A program made the position numbers and the translations under genes. A stretch of DNA of 50,041 nt from an uncultured Clostridia bacterium (GTDB lineage: Bacteria > Bacillota > Clostridia > TANB77 > CAG-508), in contig CANQSV010000009.1 of the NCBI GenBank assembly GCA_947626605.1, positions 1-50,041 on the forward strand, given 5' to 3'. The stretch's first letter is position 1. Every line of letters starts with the position of its first letter. This document shows, piece after piece, positions 507 to 8,430 of this stretch. Below the pieces are notes generated by a model. It was not told the DNA's origin, did not search any database, and saw nothing but the letters and a program-made list of their open reading frames with translations.

Positions 507-827
507 TTAAAATAATGATAGAGTTTCAAACTGTACAGGTTTTTCATATTTAGATTTTTTCCCCAACAGTATTTCAACATTTTCATATTGTTTTTCTGTT
601 ATAGTTAACACCCTAACAGATCCATCATCTGGAACATTTGCTCTTAATCTTTCTCTATGTATATCTGCCATATCTGTTCCATTGCATAATCTAGCATATA
701 CAGAAAATTGAATCATATAATATCCATCTTTCAATAAAAAGTTTCTAAATTGTGTAGCTCTTCTTCTTTCTTGTTTAGTTTTGACTGGTAAATCAAAAAA
801 TACTAATATCCTCATATATTTATGCAT
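507..827 (-). CDS. cas2: CRISPR-associated endoribonuclease Cas2
   Basis: A 106-residue protein with the Cas2 ferredoxin-like start: residues 5-13 read MRILVFFDL, the first beta strand ending in the conserved Asp, followed by the basic helix KTKQERRRATQFRNFLL. Length is normal for type II Cas2 (about 100-110). With Cas1 it forms the spacer integration complex. It overlaps the end of cas1 by 8 nt, so the two are translationally coupled. The start may be Met1 or Met5; either keeps the whole fold. It is the last gene of the cas9-cas1-cas2 operon, convergent with the CRISPR array. Confidence 0.95.
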   Translation of the reverse strand: MHKYMRILVFFDLPVKTKQERRRATQFRNFLLKDGYYMIQFSVYARLCNGTDMADIHRERLRANVPDDGSVRVLTITEKQYENVEILLGKKSKYEKPVQFETLSLF

Positions 828-1722
828 ACCTATACTCTTCTAATTCTATAAGTGTTGGCGTTTTAATTAAATTTTCTTTTCGCCTCATGCTTGTAGAAAA
901 ACTTTTTATCATATATTCAATTGCTCCCTGAACATTAAATTTTTTACCATCTATCAAAACTAAACTATTAATTAAATTAAAAATTATTTTCTTATCATTT
1001 GACGTTAATTCTGAATCTGAAAAATCAATATTATTTGTTACATATAAATCCACTACTGGTCTAAATGGTTCTATAAAATCATCTGCTAAATTAAAGTTAT
1101 TTAATTCATTATGATGAAAAATACCTATTGCTGGTTCAAATCCATACATTATTAATGTTCTAGCAATCATCCCTCTAACTATTGAATAACCATAATTTAA
1201 TGCTGCATTTTCCTTACATGGTATTTTTCTATTAAAAGTTTTACCAAACAAATTTCTAAAATAATATACTGCTGCCCTAGCTTCAATATTTGTACTATCT
1301 CCTGACAATATAGAATTAGTCATTTCTTCTAAGTATTGTCCTCCACTTACTCCGTTTATTTCTAAACACCTAGCTTGATTTAATATTTTACTAGTAATTA
1401 CATCTTGCCATATTCTTTTTATTAATGGTTTGGAGATTGTCATTTGTAATTTTATATTCTTTAGTTGTCTAGAATAATTATTCATTCCTAATAAAATCCC
1501 TGTTGGTAAGTGCTTTTCATCACATACATATAATACAATATCATGCTCAATGATTTTTCTTAAAGCATATGTTGTTATAACTGTTCTTTGAGATTCTATA
1601 CATATGCTATTAATGTCTTCTAAAGGAATTGTATGTTCTTGTCCTTCTTTTGTAACAACAAGTTGTTCATTTTTAATTTTTAAATGAACATCACTTTCAA
1701 CATAAATATTCCTAAAAGCCAT
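820..1722 (-). CDS. cas1: CRISPR-associated endonuclease Cas1
   Basis: A 300-residue type II Cas1, the integrase that inserts new spacers. The N-terminal beta domain precedes the alpha-helical catalytic domain, where the metal ligands can be seen: Glu147 in NIEARAAVYYFRNLF, His204 in GIFHHNELN, and Glu218 in DFIEPFRP. All three are present, so the enzyme looks active. The length is normal for the type II-C form. It begins 18 nt after the cas9 stop and overlaps cas2. There is no csn2 or cas4 nearby, which together with the Cas9 size gives subtype II-C. Confidence 0.97.
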   Translation of the reverse strand: MAFRNIYVESDVHLKIKNEQLVVTKEGQEHTIPLEDINSICIESQRTVITTYALRKIIEHDIVLYVCDEKHLPTGILLGMNNYSRQLKNIKLQMTISKPLIKRIWQDVITSKILNQARCLEINGVSGGQYLEEMTNSILSGDSTNIEARAAVYYFRNLFGKTFNRKIPCKENAALNYGYSIVRGMIARTLIMYGFEPAIGIFHHNELNNFNLADDFIEPFRPVVDLYVTNNIDFSDSELTSNDKKIIFNLINSLVLIDGKKFNVQGAIEYMIKSFSTSMRRKENLIKTPTLIELEEYRYA

Positions 1723-1740
1723 ATTTTTGCTTAATTTAAC

Positions 1741-4700
1741 TTAAGCTTCCTCCTTTCCTTTTTTCAAATTAAATTTTAGTCTTTTCTCTGGTAATTTTAC
1801 TTTATTGTAATTTCCTAAAACGTCTACTTCATATTTCTCAATTTTTTTCAATTTTTTAATTCCTAGACTTTCTTGTTCGTATTCACCATCATGGTTTATT
1901 ATTTTTAGCACAGCAGTTGAAATTCCTGCTTTAATATAATATGCAAAAATATCATCTACTTCTTTTTGGTCTTTTGTTTTATCATTTCGTCCGTTTAACT
2001 TAATTTTATTTTTTCCTTCAATATGAATAAGATCATTAGGATATAACGAAAATATAAAATCTTTATCATTCATTTCTTTCCATTCCGAATATGGTTTTGA
2101 CGCTATACATGCTTTATTAGGCAATTCTTTTTTCATTGTATCTGCTATATAAATTGGAACAAAATAGTAACCATCATTTTCTACATAAAATACATCTACT
2201 CTTACCATACTTCCATTATCTGCTATTGCTTTTCTTTCCGGTAATTCAACACCTAAAGTTGTTTTTTCTTCCAATTTAACCTTTTTTACTATTGGCCCTT
2301 GTGTTCCATCTGCTTTAGGTTTATAGAATGGTTCTGCAAATGCTTTTTTACCGTCTCCTCCAAACTTTTTCAATCTATTTACCAAAGCTTCATACAATAA
2401 TCTATCATCTTTTTTCTGTTTTTCAGGATATTTATCTATCTCTCCATCTTTTAACTTTAAGTTTATTAAATCTGTTTTTGTAACAGTTTTTAATATATTT
2501 CCTTCTTTCTTTAAACCTCTTATTGTTTCTTGATGGGCTTGTCCCTTTACTTTTCTTCTAGGCATTCTAGATACAAAAATAGGTTCTAAATCGTTATATC
2601 TATTTATATTATCTTCTATTTCATTATATGAATATATCTTAGCTTCTTTTATGCATTCTTCCATTCTTTCCTTACTCTGGCATGTGGTTCTTATTTCTAG
2701 CTCTTTTCTAAAATTTACCCAAGGTTCTGGAAATTTGTTTCCAAATCGTTCTTCATACTCTCTCTTACTTATAATTTCACCTGTATCTTCATCAACATAC
2801 TCGCCATTATTCTGCATATATCTTGCTTCCATATATTGAGAAAATCTAGTGATTTTATTTATCATTCTCTGAGATACAGATGCCACAACAGTAGCATCTA
2901 CTGCATGATGTTCATCTCCATCTGCTCTAATTTTTTCTATACCCCATCTTTTTCTCATATATGCAGTTACTTGTCCATTAACTGTCCATATTTTTCTTTC
3001 AAATTTTTCATTCTCTGAAAATTGCATATAATTATTTAATAAACTATAAATTACTTTAGTGATGTATCTAGTATCATTTAAATTACGGGTTTTCCATGTT
3101 TTTCTATCCTCTTCAGATATTCTTTCTTTTAGTAATTTTTTCTTTTTATTATAATTACTTATAAATTGATTTACCCTTACTTCATATTCTTCTAAGTTTC
3201 TTCCTGCTTCTTCCATATACTGGTATGGCACCCTATTTCCCTTTTGCCTATTTTCTCCTGATACAACTAAAACTTTATTATTATATGAGTCATCAAAGCA
3301 CATACTATATGGTATGATATGATCTACTTCCACGGCTTCTGTAAACAAGTCTTCTATGGAAATATGTTTGCCTGAATATATACATATTTCTTTTTGTTCT
3401 TTCCATAACTTATATTTAACAATGTCTTGACCTGTTACATCTGATTTGCCTAACTCCTCTATTATTTTCTTTGCTTCTTCATTTTTTTCTCTATTTTCTG
3501 TTTGTGACTTTTCAATTCTACTTCTATCCAATCTACTTTTTCCTAATTCTCTTGCCAATTCTATTACTACAACATCTGGTTTGCCATATATAGGATTATA
3601 CTTATTTGTAATTGCATTAATAACTTTTATTGTCTGCGAAACTGACCTTCTTACTACTGGATTAGATATTGATTGTTCTAAATCATTAATTGATAATTTT
3701 CTTTTTTTCTCTGTATTTATTTTCCCTCTAAAGTCATCATATACAGTTCCAACAGCTTTATCATATGTCATTCCTTGTTCCAATGCTGGTATAATTTTTT
3801 TCATGCATTTTATAGATAAATTACCTACTTTAGAAAAATTTAATTTTAACAATTCGTTAATTGCTTCTTTTGGTAATTTAGGAACATTTTCATTCAAATA
3901 TTTTTCTCTTTTATCATCATTTTTGTAAACACTCAAAGCATATCCAATTTGATCTATTTCATCTGATGACAATTCCTTTATATAATTTTTTTGATATTTA
4001 TCTAATGCTACTCTCATTTTATGATAACTTTTAAATTCTTCAATCTTTTTTGTTTTTTCAGATTCTTTATTAATTTCTTTTGAAAAAATATTTGTAAAAT
4101 TATATGATATCATATTAAATCTTTCAAAATCTGATAAATCAAGAACCGTTCTTAAAGTATCGTATGTAACTGTAACTTTATCTTTTACTAACTCTATTAT
4201 TTTTTTCTTTTCTTCTTCAGTTAATTCTCTTTTTTCTCTATTTATTTCTCCATTTTCAAGTTTAATATATTTCTCTATTTTTATGTGATTAATATCTTGC
4301 AATAATTTGAAATATTCAAAAGTATAACATGCTTTGGGGGCTCTATATTCATCCTCAAAAGTACATTTTCCCAACATTTTTTCAATTTGATTACCACCAT
4401 ATGGACTATTTCCACCTGGACCTTCATCAAAGCTACGTTGTGATTCAAATATTTCTACATATTCTTCAATAAACTCATCAGTTATCAAAGAATTAAATTC
4501 TTGTTGTTTCTTTAAAATTAATCTAATTTCATCTACTAATAGTTTTCTAAGAGGTGTATTTCTATATTCATTAGGGCTATTTTTTATTTTTATTAGTTTT
4601 GTACCATCTGGCAATGTTGTTGTGAACTTTTCATCTTTTAAATACATCTCAGCAACAGTTCGATACCCTTTTTCTTTCATTAATTCTTCATTTTCCTTCG

Positions 4701-5160
4701 TAGCTGTTAATAATTTTCCAGCATCACTTTTTGAGTTTTCTTCTTCTGATTTGCTATTTGATTTGTATCCACGTTTTTTTACAAAATGCACTAAAATCCT
4801 TGCTAATTCTACATTTGTAAGTTTTGAATCAAGTGCTTGCACTCTTAATTCATATGGGCTAAATTGAAATTTATAAGTAGAATATACTTCATCCAACTCT
4901 TTTATACTAATTATTTTATATTTTTCTAATAATTGTTTTGTTCTTTTTATTCGATGATTTCTTCTTCTTAATCTTCTTCTTAAACCTCTTGCCTCTCTTC
5001 TTGGTTGTGCCAATGGTGCTCCGTCCTTTGGATTTTCTGCTGCATCAAAAATTCTTGATCCTAAATCTATAATTCTTTTAGGCTCTCCATTTACATCATC
5101 TTCTAAAACAGCCCATCCTACAGATGAAATTCCTAAATCCAATCCAATTCTATACCCCAT
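1741..5160 (-). CDS. cas9: Cas9 endonuclease, type II-C
   Basis: A 1139-residue RNA-guided DNA endonuclease. I place the start at 5160 (GYRIGLDLG after Met) because an AGGAGGT site sits 6 nt upstream; a longer open frame reaches back through the tracrRNA gene and is not a real extension. Domains in order: RuvC-I with Asp8; Arg-rich bridge helix QPRREARGLRRRLRRR near residues 50-65; recognition lobe; RuvC-II with Glu534 in VVVIELARE; HNH domain with His614 in EVDHIIPYS; RuvC-III with His752 and Asp755 in EHHAVDATV; C-terminal PAM-interacting region. All nuclease residues are intact. The size fits the compact II-C group rather than the 1370-residue II-A group. It sits directly downstream of the tracrRNA terminator and is probably transcribed by read-through from the tracrRNA promoter. 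Confidence 0.98.
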   Translation of the reverse strand: MGYRIGLDLGISSVGWAVLEDDVNGEPKRIIDLGSRIFDAAENPKDGAPLAQPRREARGLRRRLRRRNHRIKRTKQLLEKYKIISIKELDEVYSTYKFQFSPYELRVQALDSKLTNVELARILVHFVKKRGYKSNSKSEEENSKSDAGKLLTATKENEELMKEKGYRTVAEMYLKDEKFTTTLPDGTKLIKIKNSPNEYRNTPLRKLLVDEIRLILKKQQEFNSLITDEFIEEYVEIFESQRSFDEGPGGNSPYGGNQIEKMLGKCTFEDEYRAPKACYTFEYFKLLQDINHIKIEKYIKLENGEINREKRELTEEEKKKIIELVKDKVTVTYDTLRTVLDLSDFERFNMISYNFTNIFSKEINKESEKTKKIEEFKSYHKMRVALDKYQKNYIKELSSDEIDQIGYALSVYKNDDKREKYLNENVPKLPKEAINELLKLNFSKVGNLSIKCMKKIIPALEQGMTYDKAVGTVYDDFRGKINTEKKRKLSINDLEQSISNPVVRRSVSQTIKVINAITNKYNPIYGKPDVVVIELARELGKSRLDRSRIEKSQTENREKNEEAKKIIEELGKSDVTGQDIVKYKLWKEQKEICIYSGKHISIEDLFTEAVEVDHIIPYSMCFDDSYNNKVLVVSGENRQKGNRVPYQYMEEAGRNLEEYEVRVNQFISNYNKKKKLLKERISEEDRKTWKTRNLNDTRYITKVIYSLLNNYMQFSENEKFERKIWTVNGQVTAYMRKRWGIEKIRADGDEHHAVDATVVASVSQRMINKITRFSQYMEARYMQNNGEYVDEDTGEIISKREYEERFGNKFPEPWVNFRKELEIRTTCQSKERMEECIKEAKIYSYNEIEDNINRYNDLEPIFVSRMPRRKVKGQAHQETIRGLKKEGNILKTVTKTDLINLKLKDGEIDKYPEKQKKDDRLLYEALVNRLKKFGGDGKKAFAEPFYKPKADGTQGPIVKKVKLEEKTTLGVELPERKAIADNGSMVRVDVFYVENDGYYFVPIYIADTMKKELPNKACIASKPYSEWKEMNDKDFIFSLYPNDLIHIEGKNKIKLNGRNDKTKDQKEVDDIFAYYIKAGISTAVLKIINHDGEYEQESLGIKKLKKIEKYEVDVLGNYNKVKLPEKRLKFNLKKGKEEA

Positions 5161-5173
5161 CTTTGTACCTCCT

Positions 5174-5292
5174 AAAAATGAAGATAGCTGCTCCACATAA
5201 AATGGAACAGCTAGTGCTTTACGACACATAGGTCTTATTATAATAACCTATTCTACTTTGATATGATATAATTTGTACTTACCCCTAAGTAC
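5174..5292 (-). ncRNA. tracrRNA
   Basis: The minus strand at 5272-5237 is an anti-repeat: aligned over 36 nt to the reverse complement of the CRISPR repeat it matches 30. Two of the changes are A to G, which become G.U wobbles, and the differences cluster in an internal bulge. Downstream comes an AATAAG stretch, a small GTGT/GCAC hairpin, and a 10-bp terminator hairpin (5212-5203 with 5195-5186) followed by a T-rich tail. This layout matches known II-C tracrRNAs such as that of Neisseria. The RNA probably starts near 5292 and is about 115-120 nt long. Its 5' end holds a perfect 7-bp hairpin (5292-5275, GGGG loop) before the anti-repeat. The tail ends right at the cas9 ribosome site. Confidence 0.9.
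5186..5212 (-). terminator. tracrRNA terminator in the cas9 leader
   Basis: A 10-bp stem (5203-5212 with 5186-5195, one G.U) with a 7-nt loop is followed on the minus strand by ATCTTCATTTTT. The cas9 ribosome site AGGAGGT (5167-5173) begins directly after the T-run, so cas9 expression would depend on read-through. Confidence 0.85.
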
Positions 5293-5426: not shown

Positions 5427-6386
5427 CTATTCAAATCCATATTCCAAAAGTTCAATTTTATTTGAGATAAAATTGTTATTATTCTCTATTGGTCTATTTA
5501 ACTCTGTTGATAAATATTTCTTATTGTCATCTGGAAATACTGTTACTATTGCTTTTGAGTTTTCTTCTTTAGCCAGAACACTCGCAATGACATTTGCTCC
5601 TGACGATATTCCCACTCCTAAACCTAAATCCAATGACAATTTTCTTGCCATATTCACTGCATCATCATCGTTTATAACCCAGACTTTGTCTATTAATTTT
5701 TTGTCTACAATCTTAGGAATAAAATCATCTCCAATCCCTTCTATTTTGTGATTTGATATTACCCTATTTTGTGATAATAATGGCATTTTATCTGGTTCTA
5801 AAGCATAAATTTTTACATCTTTATTGTTCTCTTTTAGCTTTTTAGCAACTCCCATCAATGTACCACCTGTTCCAATTCCTGAAACAAATCCTCCTATTCT
5901 TTCTCCCATTTTGTCCAATATTTCTTTACCTGTTATATTATAATGTGCTAATACATTATTTTCATTTTCAAATTGATTTGGAAAAAATGCATTATTCTTC
6001 TTTGCATATTCTTCCGCCTTTTTTATTGCTCCTGCAAAGCCTCCCTCTTCTTTTGATATTAAAGTTACTTTTGCATTGTACATTCTCATAATATCTAGTC
6101 TTTCTTTGCTCACCCAATTTGGCATAAAAATGTGTACTGGATTTTTAAAATATACTCCCATTGCTGATAAAGCTATTCCTGTATTTCCACTTGTTGCTTC
6201 AACAATCTCCATTCCTTTTTTTAAAGCACCACTCTCATATGCTGATTTTATCATGTAATATGCAACTTTGTCCTTTATACTTCCTGTTGGATTATAATAT
6301 TCTAATTTTGCAAATATTTCATTTTCTTTACCTTCATATCTATATTTAATTCTAATCAATGGTGTATTTCCAATTTTAACTTTCAT
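5427..6386 (-). CDS. cysK: cysteine synthase (O-acetylserine sulfhydrylase family)
   Basis: A 319-residue fold-type II PLP enzyme that makes L-cysteine from O-acetylserine and sulfide. The PLP lysine is Lys38 in NPTGSIKDK, the phosphate-binding and substrate loop is EATSGNTGIAL (about residues 63-73), and a GIGTGGT glycine loop binds the PLP phosphate. The length is normal. The start has an AGGAGAGG site 4-5 nt upstream. The upstream leader encodes a peptide with four consecutive cysteines followed by a terminator, which independently supports a cysteine role and indicates attenuation by cysteinyl-tRNA supply. The exact choice between CysK and a CysM-type paralogue using another sulfur donor cannot be settled by eye. 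It is transcribed alone towards the CRISPR locus. Confidence 0.9.
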   Translation of the reverse strand: MKVKIGNTPLIRIKYRYEGKENEIFAKLEYYNPTGSIKDKVAYYMIKSAYESGALKKGMEIVEATSGNTGIALSAMGVYFKNPVHIFMPNWVSKERLDIMRMYNAKVTLISKEEGGFAGAIKKAEEYAKKNNAFFPNQFENENNVLAHYNITGKEILDKMGERIGGFVSGIGTGGTLMGVAKKLKENNKDVKIYALEPDKMPLLSQNRVISNHKIEGIGDDFIPKIVDKKLIDKVWVINDDDAVNMARKLSLDLGLGVGISSGANVIASVLAKEENSKAIVTVFPDDNKKYLSTELNRPIENNNNFISNKIELLEYGFE

Positions 6387-6477
6387 AAAAATCCTCTCCT
6401 ATTCTTAATATATTCTTAAAATAATATTATTGTTAAGCCTGCAAGCCTTAAGAATATATATCCAGAATAAGATTATA

Positions 6478-6514
6478 CAAAAAGAGTTATGCATTAACTC
6501 CCTGCACAACTCTT
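6478..6514 (-). terminator. attenuator terminator upstream of cysK
   Basis: A 12-bp stem (6514-6503 with 6493-6482, one G.U wobble) with a 9-nt loop is followed on the minus strand by TTTTTG. It sits between the Cys-rich leader ORF and cysK. Its 5' arm GTTGTGCAGG can instead pair with CCTGCAAC at 6553-6546, which would destroy the terminator. Confidence 0.88.
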
Positions 6515-6586
6515 ATATAATAATGGATAATATATTATATATTTCGTTGCAGGCATAATAGCTTATACCTACAACAAGGCATAAGC

Positions 6587-6631
6587 TTATATACAGCAAC
6601 AACATTCAATATATAATATATTTTTATCCAT
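6587..6631 (-). CDS. cysteine leader peptide (14 aa) controlling cysK
   Basis: The minus strand reads MDKNILYIECCCCI then TAA. Four consecutive Cys codons (TGT TGT TGC TGT, 6604-6593) in a 14-codon ORF cannot be chance in this AT-rich DNA. A perfect AGGAGG (6644-6639) lies 7 nt before the ATG and a strong promoter lies upstream. By analogy with ribosome-mediated attenuation, stalling on the Cys codons when charged tRNA-Cys is low would cover GTTGTTGC and free GCCTGCAAC to pair with the terminator arm, allowing cysK transcription. With ample cysteine the peptide is finished and the terminator forms. The mechanism is inferred; the ORF, its signals and the alternative pairings are read directly. 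Confidence 0.9.
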   Translation of the reverse strand: MDKNILYIECCCCI

Positions 6632-6679
6632 ATTCTCTCCTCCTTTTGGTAAACTATTGATAAAATATTTATTGTATGT

Positions 6680-6708
6680 ATTATAGCATATATTTAAATT
6701 TTAGTAAA
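6680..6708 (-). promoter_or_regulatory. promoter of the cys leader-cysK unit
   Basis: Minus strand TTTACT (6708-6703), 17-nt spacer, TATAAT (6685-6680) with a TGn extension. Start expected near 6673, giving a leader of about 285 nt before cysK. Confidence 0.82.
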
Positions 6709-6763
6709 CCTTTTCATTGTAACTTCTAATTTCTTAAATGATACCTGTAAGAATTTGTTATCA

Positions 6764-6792
6764 TTGTATTTTTATGTAAACGATGGTATAAT
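6764..6792 (+). promoter_or_regulatory. promoter of GC-rich cassette copy 1
   Basis: TTGTAT (6764-6769), 17 nt, TATAAT (6787-6792) preceded by TG one base before, so an extended -10. The same arrangement precedes copy 2. The two divergent promoters at 6680-6792 serve cysK and this cassette. Confidence 0.8.
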
Positions 6793-6877
6793 TATATTAG
6801 TTCTATATTCTTTGCAAGCGCATGAGTGTAGGACGGTCCGTACATTCCAAATTTCATATCATAAGGAGGAACAATTC

Positions 6878-7597
6878 ATGTTCGAACTCAATTTCACCCC
6901 CGGCGTCCAGGTTGGCGTCGCCAAACAGCACGTTGAGGAACTCCGTGCTACACGCATCACACTCAAAACTGGTGCTGACATCTATCGTGAGGTCTTCTAT
7001 GGAGGTCTCTTTCCCGGACGTACACGTCATCCTGACACTATCCGGAAAGAAAAAACTCTCATTGAAGAAGGTCGGGCTATCTGGCCCGTCTTTGAGGCAG
7101 ACGTATCTCAGGGGCTTGACATTCTCAAGGATACATCCTCTTTCACAGACGAGCAGAAAGCCCTCATTAATCTTGCCCTCACTGGTATTATCGACTGCAA
7201 GGTAAACTGTTCCGACTTCAGAGAGAGCACTTTTGCTGATTTCAAAATTCTGGCAGAAAAGCTCACTAGTGAAGGCCCCTCATATACACCCTGGGTGCAT
7301 TTCTTCACTTACTGTATCGAAATGGCACCTCTCTACTGCTATGCCTGCACCAACACTGTGGATCAGACCGAAAACTGGCTGGTTGAGAATCGCTTTCTGT
7401 TCCCCAAAGACGGAATCTTGCATTCGTATTGCATTGCTCTCCTCCCCGAAACAGAGCGTGCTTTTGCCATCTATACTTGGCTTGAAGCAGCAAGAAGAGG
7501 AAATGAGTTTATGACGCTTATGAAAATAAAGTCTTTTCTGGATGACTCTGAAGGTCGTTCCTTGACGATTCATCCTGCTAGCGAGAAGAAAAACTGA
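6878..7597 (+). CDS. unrecognised GC-rich protein, cassette copy 1
   Basis: I do not recognise this 239-residue protein. The ATG at 6878 has AAGGAGG 8 nt upstream; a longer open frame upstream crosses the promoter and is not used. No signal peptide or membrane segment is evident; it looks soluble and mostly helical, with conserved aromatic and Cys residues (FFTYCIEMAPLYCYA). It is homologous to the next gene: shared blocks are KQHVEELRATRIT near the N-terminus, IWPxFExDVSxGLDxxKDT, FTDEQKA, an FxYCIxxAPLYxYA block and PKxGIL near the C-terminus. Base composition is strikingly unlike the surroundings: 37 of 60 bases at 6901-6960 are G or C, in a genome that looks well under 35 percent. That suggests acquisition from another organism. 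It stands as its own unit with promoter and terminator. Confidence 0.85.
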   Translation: MFELNFTPGVQVGVAKQHVEELRATRITLKTGADIYREVFYGGLFPGRTRHPDTIRKEKTLIEEGRAIWPVFEADVSQGLDILKDTSSFTDEQKALINLALTGIIDCKVNCSDFRESTFADFKILAEKLTSEGPSYTPWVHFFTYCIEMAPLYCYACTNTVDQTENWLVENRFLFPKDGILHSYCIALLPETERAFAIYTWLEAARRGNEFMTLMKIKSFLDDSEGRSLTIHPASEKKN

Positions 7598-7604
7598 CCA
7601 ACAA

Positions 7605-7650
7605 TCATGCGCAGATCCCCCACCGTTTACGGTTTAGGGGGATCTTTTCT
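7605..7650 (+). terminator. terminator of cassette copy 1 with conserved TCATGCGC
   Basis: AGATCCCCC (7613-7621) pairs with GGGGGATCT (7637-7645) around a loop that itself holds CCG/CGG, followed by TTTTCTTTTTT. The preceding TCATGCGC (7605-7612) is the exact complement of GCGCATGA in the 5' leader at 6818-6825. The same block recurs after copy 2. Confidence 0.9.
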
Positions 7651-7692
7651 TTTTTATTATCGCTTCAACTAATTTCCTTTGTTCTTCCTTTT

Positions 7693-7721
7693 TTGCAATT
7701 TTATGTAAATAGTGGTATAAT
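7693..7721 (+). promoter_or_regulatory. promoter of GC-rich cassette copy 2
   Basis: TTGCAA (7693-7698), 17 nt, TATAAT (7716-7721) with TGG directly before, an extended -10. The sequence around the -10 and the following leader (TTTGCAA, CGCATGA, TGTA) is nearly the same as in copy 1. Confidence 0.82.
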
Positions 7722-7794
7722 TATATTAAGTCTATACTCTTTGCAAACGCATGAATGTATAAGGCTAATTATATAATATTAAGGAGGAACTTTT

Positions 7795-8430
7795 ATGTTC
7801 AAATTTATTCCCTGCGTCTCAGTTGAGACAATCAAACAGCACGTTGAGGAACTCCGTGCTACACGGATTACACGTACAACCGCTCTAGAGATGAGAAGAG
7901 AGGCACCTGTTGCTGGAGAAGAAGCTCTCCGTGAAGAGGCTGATTATATCTGGCCTGCCTTTGAGGAAGACGTATCTAAGGGACTTGACTTTATCAAGGA
8001 CACTCACTTCTTCAATGATCAGCAAAAGGCAGACATCGAACTTGCTCTTAAAGGCATTATCTCGTGTGCTATAACTCAGTTTGATGCCTCTAAAGCCTTG
8101 AGTATGCTCAATTCTCTGGCAAAAGAGATTGATGGCAAAGGAAACTCAGCCGAGCCATTTGTTCAATTCTTTAATTACTGCATTGCAGTGGCTCCACTTT
8201 ATTGGTATGCGATGATCAATGTGATGAGTTATAATGACATCTTGTTTCTTAAAGACATGCATGGTAATCCATCCAGAGATCTTGCTGTTCCCAAAAATGG
8301 AATCTTGGTGACTTACTGCGCTGCATTGTACCCAAACCGTGAAACTATTAACTATTATAATTGGTGTACAGCTTTTGACAGGACATTCCAGTACTTAGAT
8401 CCCAGCGTTCTCAATCAGCTTGCTAATTGA
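7795..8430 (+). CDS. unrecognised protein, cassette copy 2
   Basis: A 211-residue paralogue of the preceding gene, family unknown to me. An AAGGAGG site lies 8 nt before the ATG. It shares the N-terminal KQHVEELRATRIT block, IWPAFEEDVSKGLDFIKDT, FNDQQKADIELAL, the FNYCIAVAPLYWYA block and PKNGILVTYC. It lacks some 28 residues relative to copy 1, chiefly in the region after the first block and at the C-terminus. Its base composition is nearer the host than copy 1, as expected of an older resident or a separately acquired copy. A 33-nt stretch at 7833-7865 is identical to copy 1 although most of the rest has diverged. It is convergent with pepV, whose stop lies 85 nt away. Confidence 0.85.
   Translation: MFKFIPCVSVETIKQHVEELRATRITRTTALEMRREAPVAGEEALREEADYIWPAFEEDVSKGLDFIKDTHFFNDQQKADIELALKGIISCAITQFDASKALSMLNSLAKEIDGKGNSAEPFVQFFNYCIAVAPLYWYAMINVMSYNDILFLKDMHGNPSRDLAVPKNGILVTYCAALYPNRETINYYNWCTAFDRTFQYLDPSVLNQLAN

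Follow-up and report, generated by a model that had tools for sequence, protein, structure and literature searches.

What controls cysK, a gene for cysteine synthase, in an uncultured bacterium of the class Clostridia? The question was raised by contig CANQSV010000009.1 (positions 1 to 50,041, 50,041 nucleotides (nt); this whole stretch is referred to as the window), on which an earlier note, made from the sequence, had proposed a ribosome-mediated cysteine attenuator upstream of this gene. We observed that comparative data support this proposal well. The window's element is very probably a cysteine-responsive, ribosome-mediated transcription attenuator of cysK that belongs to a modular family, and this family appears to be one attenuator with exchangeable sensor codons.

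Leader region of cysK and the proposed switch

Between 6708 and 6386 of the minus strand, we observed, in this order, a promoter, a leader open reading frame (ORF) with its own Shine-Dalgarno (SD) sequence, a set of competing hairpins, an intrinsic terminator and cysK. All the parts named earlier, that is, the promoter, a 14-codon ORF with four Cys codons and Ile, a terminator of 12 base pairs (bp) and the cysteine synthase gene, were thus located on this strand. The leader ORF is SD-led and starts ~50 nt downstream of the −10 box. Equivalent promoters are present at the leaders of loci L005 (TTGACA-TATAAT) and L016 (TTGACC-TATACT). In the following list, the promoter and both SD sites were assigned from the sequence, segment A from the sequence and the covariation of A:B, and the leader arm L from covariation and the cognate-duplex test described below.

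6680-6708, minus strand: sigma-70-type promoter, TTTACT (6708-6703), 17-nt spacer, TATAAT (6685-6680)
6635-6644, minus strand: leader SD, AGGAGGAGAG
6587-6631, minus strand: leader ORF MDKNILYIECCCCI, 14 codons, ATG to TAA; control codons TGT TGT TGC TGT at 6604-6593, then ATA before the stop
6608-6622, minus strand: leader-coding arm L, AATATATTATATATT; pairs with 6543-6529 and would sequester segment C if the leader is untranslated
6577-6586, minus strand: segment A, GCTTATGCCT, the first 10 nt past the stop codon; pairing partner of B
6561-6575, minus strand: segment B; its part AGGTATAAGC (6570-6561) is the partner of A, and GTTGTAGGTATAA (6575-6563) that of C
6546-6558, minus strand: segment C, TTATGCCTGCAAC; pairs with B, the Cys codons or D (antiterminator)
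6501-6514, minus strand: segment D; its part AAGAGTTGTGCA (6514-6503) is the 5′ arm of the terminator and overlaps GTTGTGCAGG (6510-6501), which pairs with C
6479-6493, minus strand: segment E, terminator 3′ arm and U tract, TGCATAACTCTTTTT
6437-6444, minus strand: TTGCAGGC, beyond the terminator and able to pair with C; of unsupported role and seen only in the window and its genus-mate L002
6393-6400, minus strand: cysK SD, AGGAGAGG
5427-6386, minus strand: cysK-like cysteine synthase of pyridoxal phosphate fold type II, the regulated gene; ATG at 6386

The terminator stem is formed by 6514-6503 with 6493-6482, and the U tract ends at 6479. The product of cysK matched the NCBIfam cysKM family TIGR01136 with an E-value of 8e-95 and 318 bits, below the cut-off of 344 bits. 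The fold of the region is 6.5 standard deviations more stable than those of dinucleotide shuffles.

A:B, B:C, C:D and D:E are successive alternative pairings, and C can also be held by L and by the Cys codons. The antiterminator C:D and the terminator D:E are mutually exclusive. The 9-mer GCCTGCAAC (6554-6546) can indeed pair, as had been noted, with the Cys codons, with GTTGTGCAGG and with TTGCAGGC. The last of these sequences is complementary to C, but it lies after the terminator, is confined to the window's genus and lacks comparative support. The description of the locus as a textbook attenuator falls short of its architecture, which has five segments and the Cys codons (leader:C, A:B, B:C, C:D, D:E) instead of the trp-like four. 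Two of its elements were absent from the earlier note: the hairpin A:B right after the stop codon and the 13-bp B:C alternative (6575-6563 with 6558-6546).

From these pairings, the following switch can be proposed. When Cys-tRNA is sufficient, the ribosome would reach the stop codon and cover A, which is exactly the first ten nt past the stop and is expected from the ribosome footprint to be masked; B would then pair with C, leaving D free to form the terminator D:E, and transcription would stop before cysK. When Cys-tRNA is scarce, the ribosome would stall on the four Cys codons, A:B would form, and the free C would pair with D. This antiterminator would leave E without a partner, and RNA polymerase would read through into cysK. 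If the leader is untranslated, its own codons would hold C, which would make termination the default.

We modelled the switch by folding transcripts ending at D, with the front edge of the ribosome assumed to be 15 nt past the first P-site nucleotide. In this thermodynamic modelling, the probability of C:D in the window's element was 0.00 for the untranslated leader and 0.79 when the first Cys codon occupied the A site; for a ribosome at the stop codon, it was 0.00. The corresponding means for 39 Cys elements were 0.35, 0.90 (stalled) and 0.46.

Conservation and covariation of the Cys elements

The cysK orthologues were gathered first from 56 and later from 390 genomes of the order and family, together with 80 named loci. 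The named relatives are assemblies from gut metagenomes under the label uncultured Clostridia, and the window's genus was found in a rabbit sample (Lapin). Among 172 distinct 400-nt regions upstream of cysK, 10 had a short ORF with an SD, an ATG and at least three consecutive Cys codons, whereas none was present in 60 dinucleotide-shuffled sets, and therefore the leader is not a chance occurrence. The reverse strand also yielded none, and among the other amino acids under the same run criterion Ile alone gave any (three). Besides the window and L002, unrelated genera have Cys leaders at the same place (MKIRNMFVNCCCCMK, MKKYILNCCCCCR, MIKNIFVNCCCCMI, MSLKNIIFNCCCS and MILINIISNCCCMN).

The window's leader was aligned with 39 others of the common form (K)NI..N-C(2-5), and the SD, the reading frame and the position of the stop are kept in all 40. 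The comparative leader search that the earlier note had put forward as a check was run: the orthologous leaders retain 2-5 Cys codons and the competition between terminator and antiterminator, upstream of cysK, cysS and cysE. The switch segments common to the element sequences are the leader arm L, A after the stop, B as the 3′ side of the first hairpin, a CCTACA-type C, and the terminator arms D and E. C:D complementarity was found in 41 of 41 Cys elements, and a terminator in every one scanned for it.

We built a covariance model, R1, from eight elements, none of them from the window's genus. With default filters, R1 found the window's element as the sole match in its 1.67-Mb genome (44 bits, E 7.7e-5). 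MAFFT misplaced the A arm of divergent hairpins, and therefore covariance-model alignments were used for the analysis of covariation. In one of these (A4, 20 distinct sequences), 93.9% of the cells pair. Two-sided changes were seen in 18 pairs and 44 cells, compared with 6.5 and 12.1, respectively, in shuffled alignments, and the signal was destroyed by sliding the partner. Helix 1 (the leader arm, L:C) had two-sided changes in 12 of its 15 pairs, and A:B covaried as well. A test that is independent of pair-by-pair alignment gave consistent results: the cognate duplexes C:D, L:C, A:B and B:C each beat the permuted ones (0/20000 permutations), with −13.1 versus −11.0 kcal/mol for C:D and −12.6 versus −7.3 kcal/mol for L:C.

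About 45 Cys elements precede cysK, cysS (NCBIfam TIGR00435, E 9e-152) or cysE, the latter often followed by cysK, in three families (f1, f4 and f5) of one clostridial order. R1 found an element in 18 of 390 genomes of the family and the Cys-only model R2 in 28 of 336 genomes of the order; no element of the R1/R2 type was matched in genomes of the class outside the order. The Cys leaders at L016 and L152 and the cysE leaders at L073/L074, which have no convincing R2 match, were excluded from the family counts. In the window's genome, no cysE was found above the NCBIfam cut-off, though the Cys attenuator and cysK are present; for such a cysK without a recognisable cysE, the attenuator assigns a likely function.

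Some further Cys-rich leaders were also observed. In family f3 (L074, L073/L023), the leader upstream of cysE, MKKINEACCCCCCNRIIKYLKN, has a run of 6-7 Cys codons (at L074 it is on the minus strand, position 5142 of the reverse complement), and a long hairpin behind it covers part of the cysE SD; the output of this leader looks translational from its sequence. At L152, two short ORFs in succession, first MTKCCCCCFILTFRKI and next MLKKQVNSIRCCISFYYLF, each contain a Cys run and lie upstream of cysK without a clear terminator. A scan for the pattern SD-ATG-CCC gave many matches, but inspection of the loci gave no confirmation that the scaffold-less in-frame ones (MYNRYRRCCC, MDQEVDICCC and others) are leaders of Cys genes.

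Scaffold elements with leaders for other amino acids

The earlier note also could not see that His, branched-chain and Arg leaders occur on the same scaffold. The weak R2 matches in family f5 turned out to be copies of this scaffold upstream of ilvB-ilvN; MKNINVTLKLVGLLLR is an example of their leaders (branched-chain amino acids (BCAA), LVGLLL). A single element with an Arg-run leader, MENINTIIRRRRH, lies before a gene for a GNAT-amino-acid-kinase fusion (L379:257-373), fitting arginine biosynthesis. We used a leader-agnostic model of the post-leader part, R3, trained on 20 Cys, three ilvB and one Arg element, and on no His element and not on the window. R3 matched in 83 of 311 genomes of the order, and the window's element scored 48.8 bits (E 4.7e-6 in its genome), which places it on the scaffold. 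A second copy of the GNAT-amino-acid-kinase gene, at L413, has a good R3 match but no clear leader. Some of the matches above an E-value of ~2e-4 are false and have no leader (L458, L463, L466, L469, L472), and matches in this range were excluded from the conclusions.

R3 also found His elements, with E-values down to ~4e-8 per genome; every one of them lies where a His leader has its stop codon. A typical leader is MKLKIFLNQLHHHRRSL (LHHHRRSL form), and the genes behind such leaders are hisS, hisZ, hisG and hisC. The others are those for a beta-Ala-His dipeptidase, a CntK-like histidine-racemase relative, the binding protein of a polar amino-acid ABC transporter, a GNAT and a radical SAM protein. 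If the leaders report the pathway, likely functions follow for the uncharacterised ones among these genes (the CntK-like racemase, the GNATs, the radical SAM enzyme and the transporter). A DapF-like protein is encoded behind His attenuators at L416, L428, L431-L436, L450, L454 and L467. Its only NCBIfam match is the CntK histidine racemase (E 3e-25, below the cut-off), which suggests a histidine-related racemase. Tandem His-leader elements were seen upstream of hisG (L421:251-546 and L440:251-606).

In 99 of 101 sense elements, a leader for Cys, His, BCAA or Arg ends at the scaffold. The leader residue agreed with the pathway in 60 of 60 unambiguous cases, compared with a shuffled mean of 25.7, in sequences that are not phylogenetically independent. 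The core CCTAC(A/G)ATAG / CTAT..GTAGG is common to the classes, the C of one class pairs well with the D of another, and the leader start NIF(V/L)N is common to the Cys and His classes. In the folding model, the probability of C:D in the stalled and the stop-codon states was 0.85 versus 0.42 for Cys (37 of 40 in the right direction), 0.84 versus 0.20 for His (46 of 46) and 0.87 versus 0.41 for BCAA (8 of 8); the Arg element also changed in the right direction (1 of 1). In the relatives, the A-B-C-D-E scaffold with His, Leu/Val or Arg leaders would control the matching pathway, so that the leader codons appear to set the specificity.

Several points weigh against the attenuator or its family. 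R1 under stricter filters missed the window's element, alignments fitted to a model favour the structure of that model, and the distribution of the leaders is patchy, most of the cysK orthologues examined having none. The +15 footprint from the P site is an assumption. For L212, L291, L210, L280 and L292, the equilibrium model gives antitermination in the stop-codon state as well, and it does not separate this state in about a third of the 39 Cys elements; folding kinetics or a different footprint must therefore be invoked. Finally, R2 detects the His elements weakly (best E 0.002), and because of this we regard the homology of the classes as likely rather than proven; the main arguments for their common descent are R3 and the shared C/D core.

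The same weak detection leaves some room for convergence, in which the His, BCAA and Arg elements would be attenuators of independent origin that share generic features with a genuine Cys element. His-leader attenuators did arise in several groups of Firmicutes (PMC9413887, PMC2965389). However, R3 recovers the His elements at E 1e-8 to 1e-5 and in register with the leader stop although none was among its training sequences, and the good cross-class C:D pairing on a common core and the NIF(V/L)N start of Cys and His leaders also speak against convergence. We therefore consider convergence unlikely, although it is the most serious alternative to a modular family.

A metabolite-binding riboswitch or a protein-binding RNA, with an incidental short ORF and a TGT run that is merely a pairing element, is very improbable. 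It would agree with the pairing of the TGT run with C in the untranslated fold and with the strongly conserved structure, but not with the SD, frame and stop position kept across the aligned leaders. Other classes, moreover, swap the run for the codons of another amino acid, and the pathway match changes along with the scaffold. No Rfam 15 family matched the window's element at the gathering score, and low-threshold matches over the leader (microRNA and small-RNA families) were dismissed as chance. A shade less probable still is a translational output in the window through sequestration of the ribosome-binding site. The distant cysE relatives at L073 and L074 have their hairpin over the cysE SD in place of a terminator, but a U-tract terminator lies well ahead of the cysK SD in the window's element, as it does in the Cys elements scanned. 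Control of cysK by a tRNA-sensing T-box can practically be set aside, since T-boxes, though common in these genomes (six in the window's own), gave no match in the window at the gathering score nor over the leader at E up to 5, which refutes a T-box by sequence at these thresholds, and a translated Cys run would be superfluous to one. At cysS, no T-box was matched by Rfam in 15 loci of these genomes.

Neighbouring genes and comparison with known systems

Between the attenuator and a peptidase gene, two adjoining ORFs lie on the plus strand (6755-8430). They are likely paralogues (common QHVEELRATRIT stretch) with near-identical promoter-like upstream stretches, belong to no NCBIfam family and have a G+C content of 0.39-0.48, compared with 0.26-0.31 around them. 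This pair looks inserted, because in L002 the end of the peptidase gene directly adjoins the attenuator. Type II CRISPR-Cas genes (cas9, cas1 and cas2; 507-5229, minus strand) come directly after cysK on the same strand.

Among the described systems close to the proposed cysteine-responsive attenuator of the window is the uORFC-8-2 motif, a Cys-codon attenuator of cysS in Rhodobacterales, where a tandem-Cys leader ORF is followed by an intrinsic terminator and ribosome-mediated attenuation of a Cys gene was proposed (PMC8632094). By its description, that motif is restricted to Alphaproteobacteria and cysS, has two Cys codons at positions 14-15 and two stems, the first of which holds the Cys codons. 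The window's family, in contrast, is clostridial, has five segments, precedes cysK, cysE and cysS, and has His, BCAA and Arg sister classes.

Poly-Cys leader ORFs were described in Actinobacteria, without terminators (PMC1262725), and the mycobacterial ones are cited as translational (Canestrari 2020, as cited in PMC13236596). They share with the window the Cys-codon runs near the leader stop, upstream of cys genes. Such ORFs are leaderless, lack a conserved terminator and act translationally or Rho-dependently, whereas the window's ORF is SD-led and has an intrinsic terminator. Its SD, its distance from the −10 box and the terminator behind it do not fit the mycobacterial leaderless type.

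His leaders are known before hisS/hisZ in bacilli (PMC2965389) and before his genes or operons in the B. cereus group, Peptostreptococcaceae and Erysipelotrichales (PMC9413887). These attenuators resemble the His elements found here in their His-run leader peptides and terminators. As described in the available text, they concern His only, group by group, and no scaffold shared with Cys, BCAA or Arg is reported there. The his, leu and ilv attenuators of Proteobacteria also consist of alternating multi-segment hairpins set by ribosome position; to our knowledge, they are catalogued as separate families and not as one scaffold. In the open-access literature searched, we found neither a Cys leader attenuator in Clostridia nor a leader-attenuator scaffold shared by several amino acids.

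The trpB noncoding RNA motif (RF04312) is likewise a hairpin with a terminator before amino-acid genes in Firmicutes; it was published as a riboswitch candidate without a leader ORF, for which its authors do not exclude attenuation (PMC11109978). RF04312 did not match the window's element, and three His-type elements matched it below threshold (L421:262-365, L429:1296-1383 and L419:263-350; 34.6-42.9 versus 59 bits). These sub-threshold matches raise the question whether the trpB riboswitch candidate is a leader-peptide attenuator, and the scaffold may thus bear on whether some other orphan riboswitch candidates are such attenuators as well.

On balance, we lean towards a single ancestral ribosome-read switch that was re-programmed for Cys, His, BCAA and Arg in one clostridial order, as a counterpart of the T-box, with the trpB candidate as a perhaps misclassified branch. 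The T-box (RF00230) similarly serves many amino acids from one scaffold, with codon-like specificity positions and before the same kinds of genes. It binds tRNA directly, whereas the window's element would be read by the ribosome codon by codon. Leader-peptide attenuators are usually viewed as one-off solutions for each amino acid, and T-boxes as the modular system of Firmicutes. If the proposed family is true, its classes lend themselves to tests of what determines specificity, its scaffold offers a compact, programmable amino-acid sensor, and modular evolution is open to ribosome-mediated attenuation too, in genomes that also have T-boxes.
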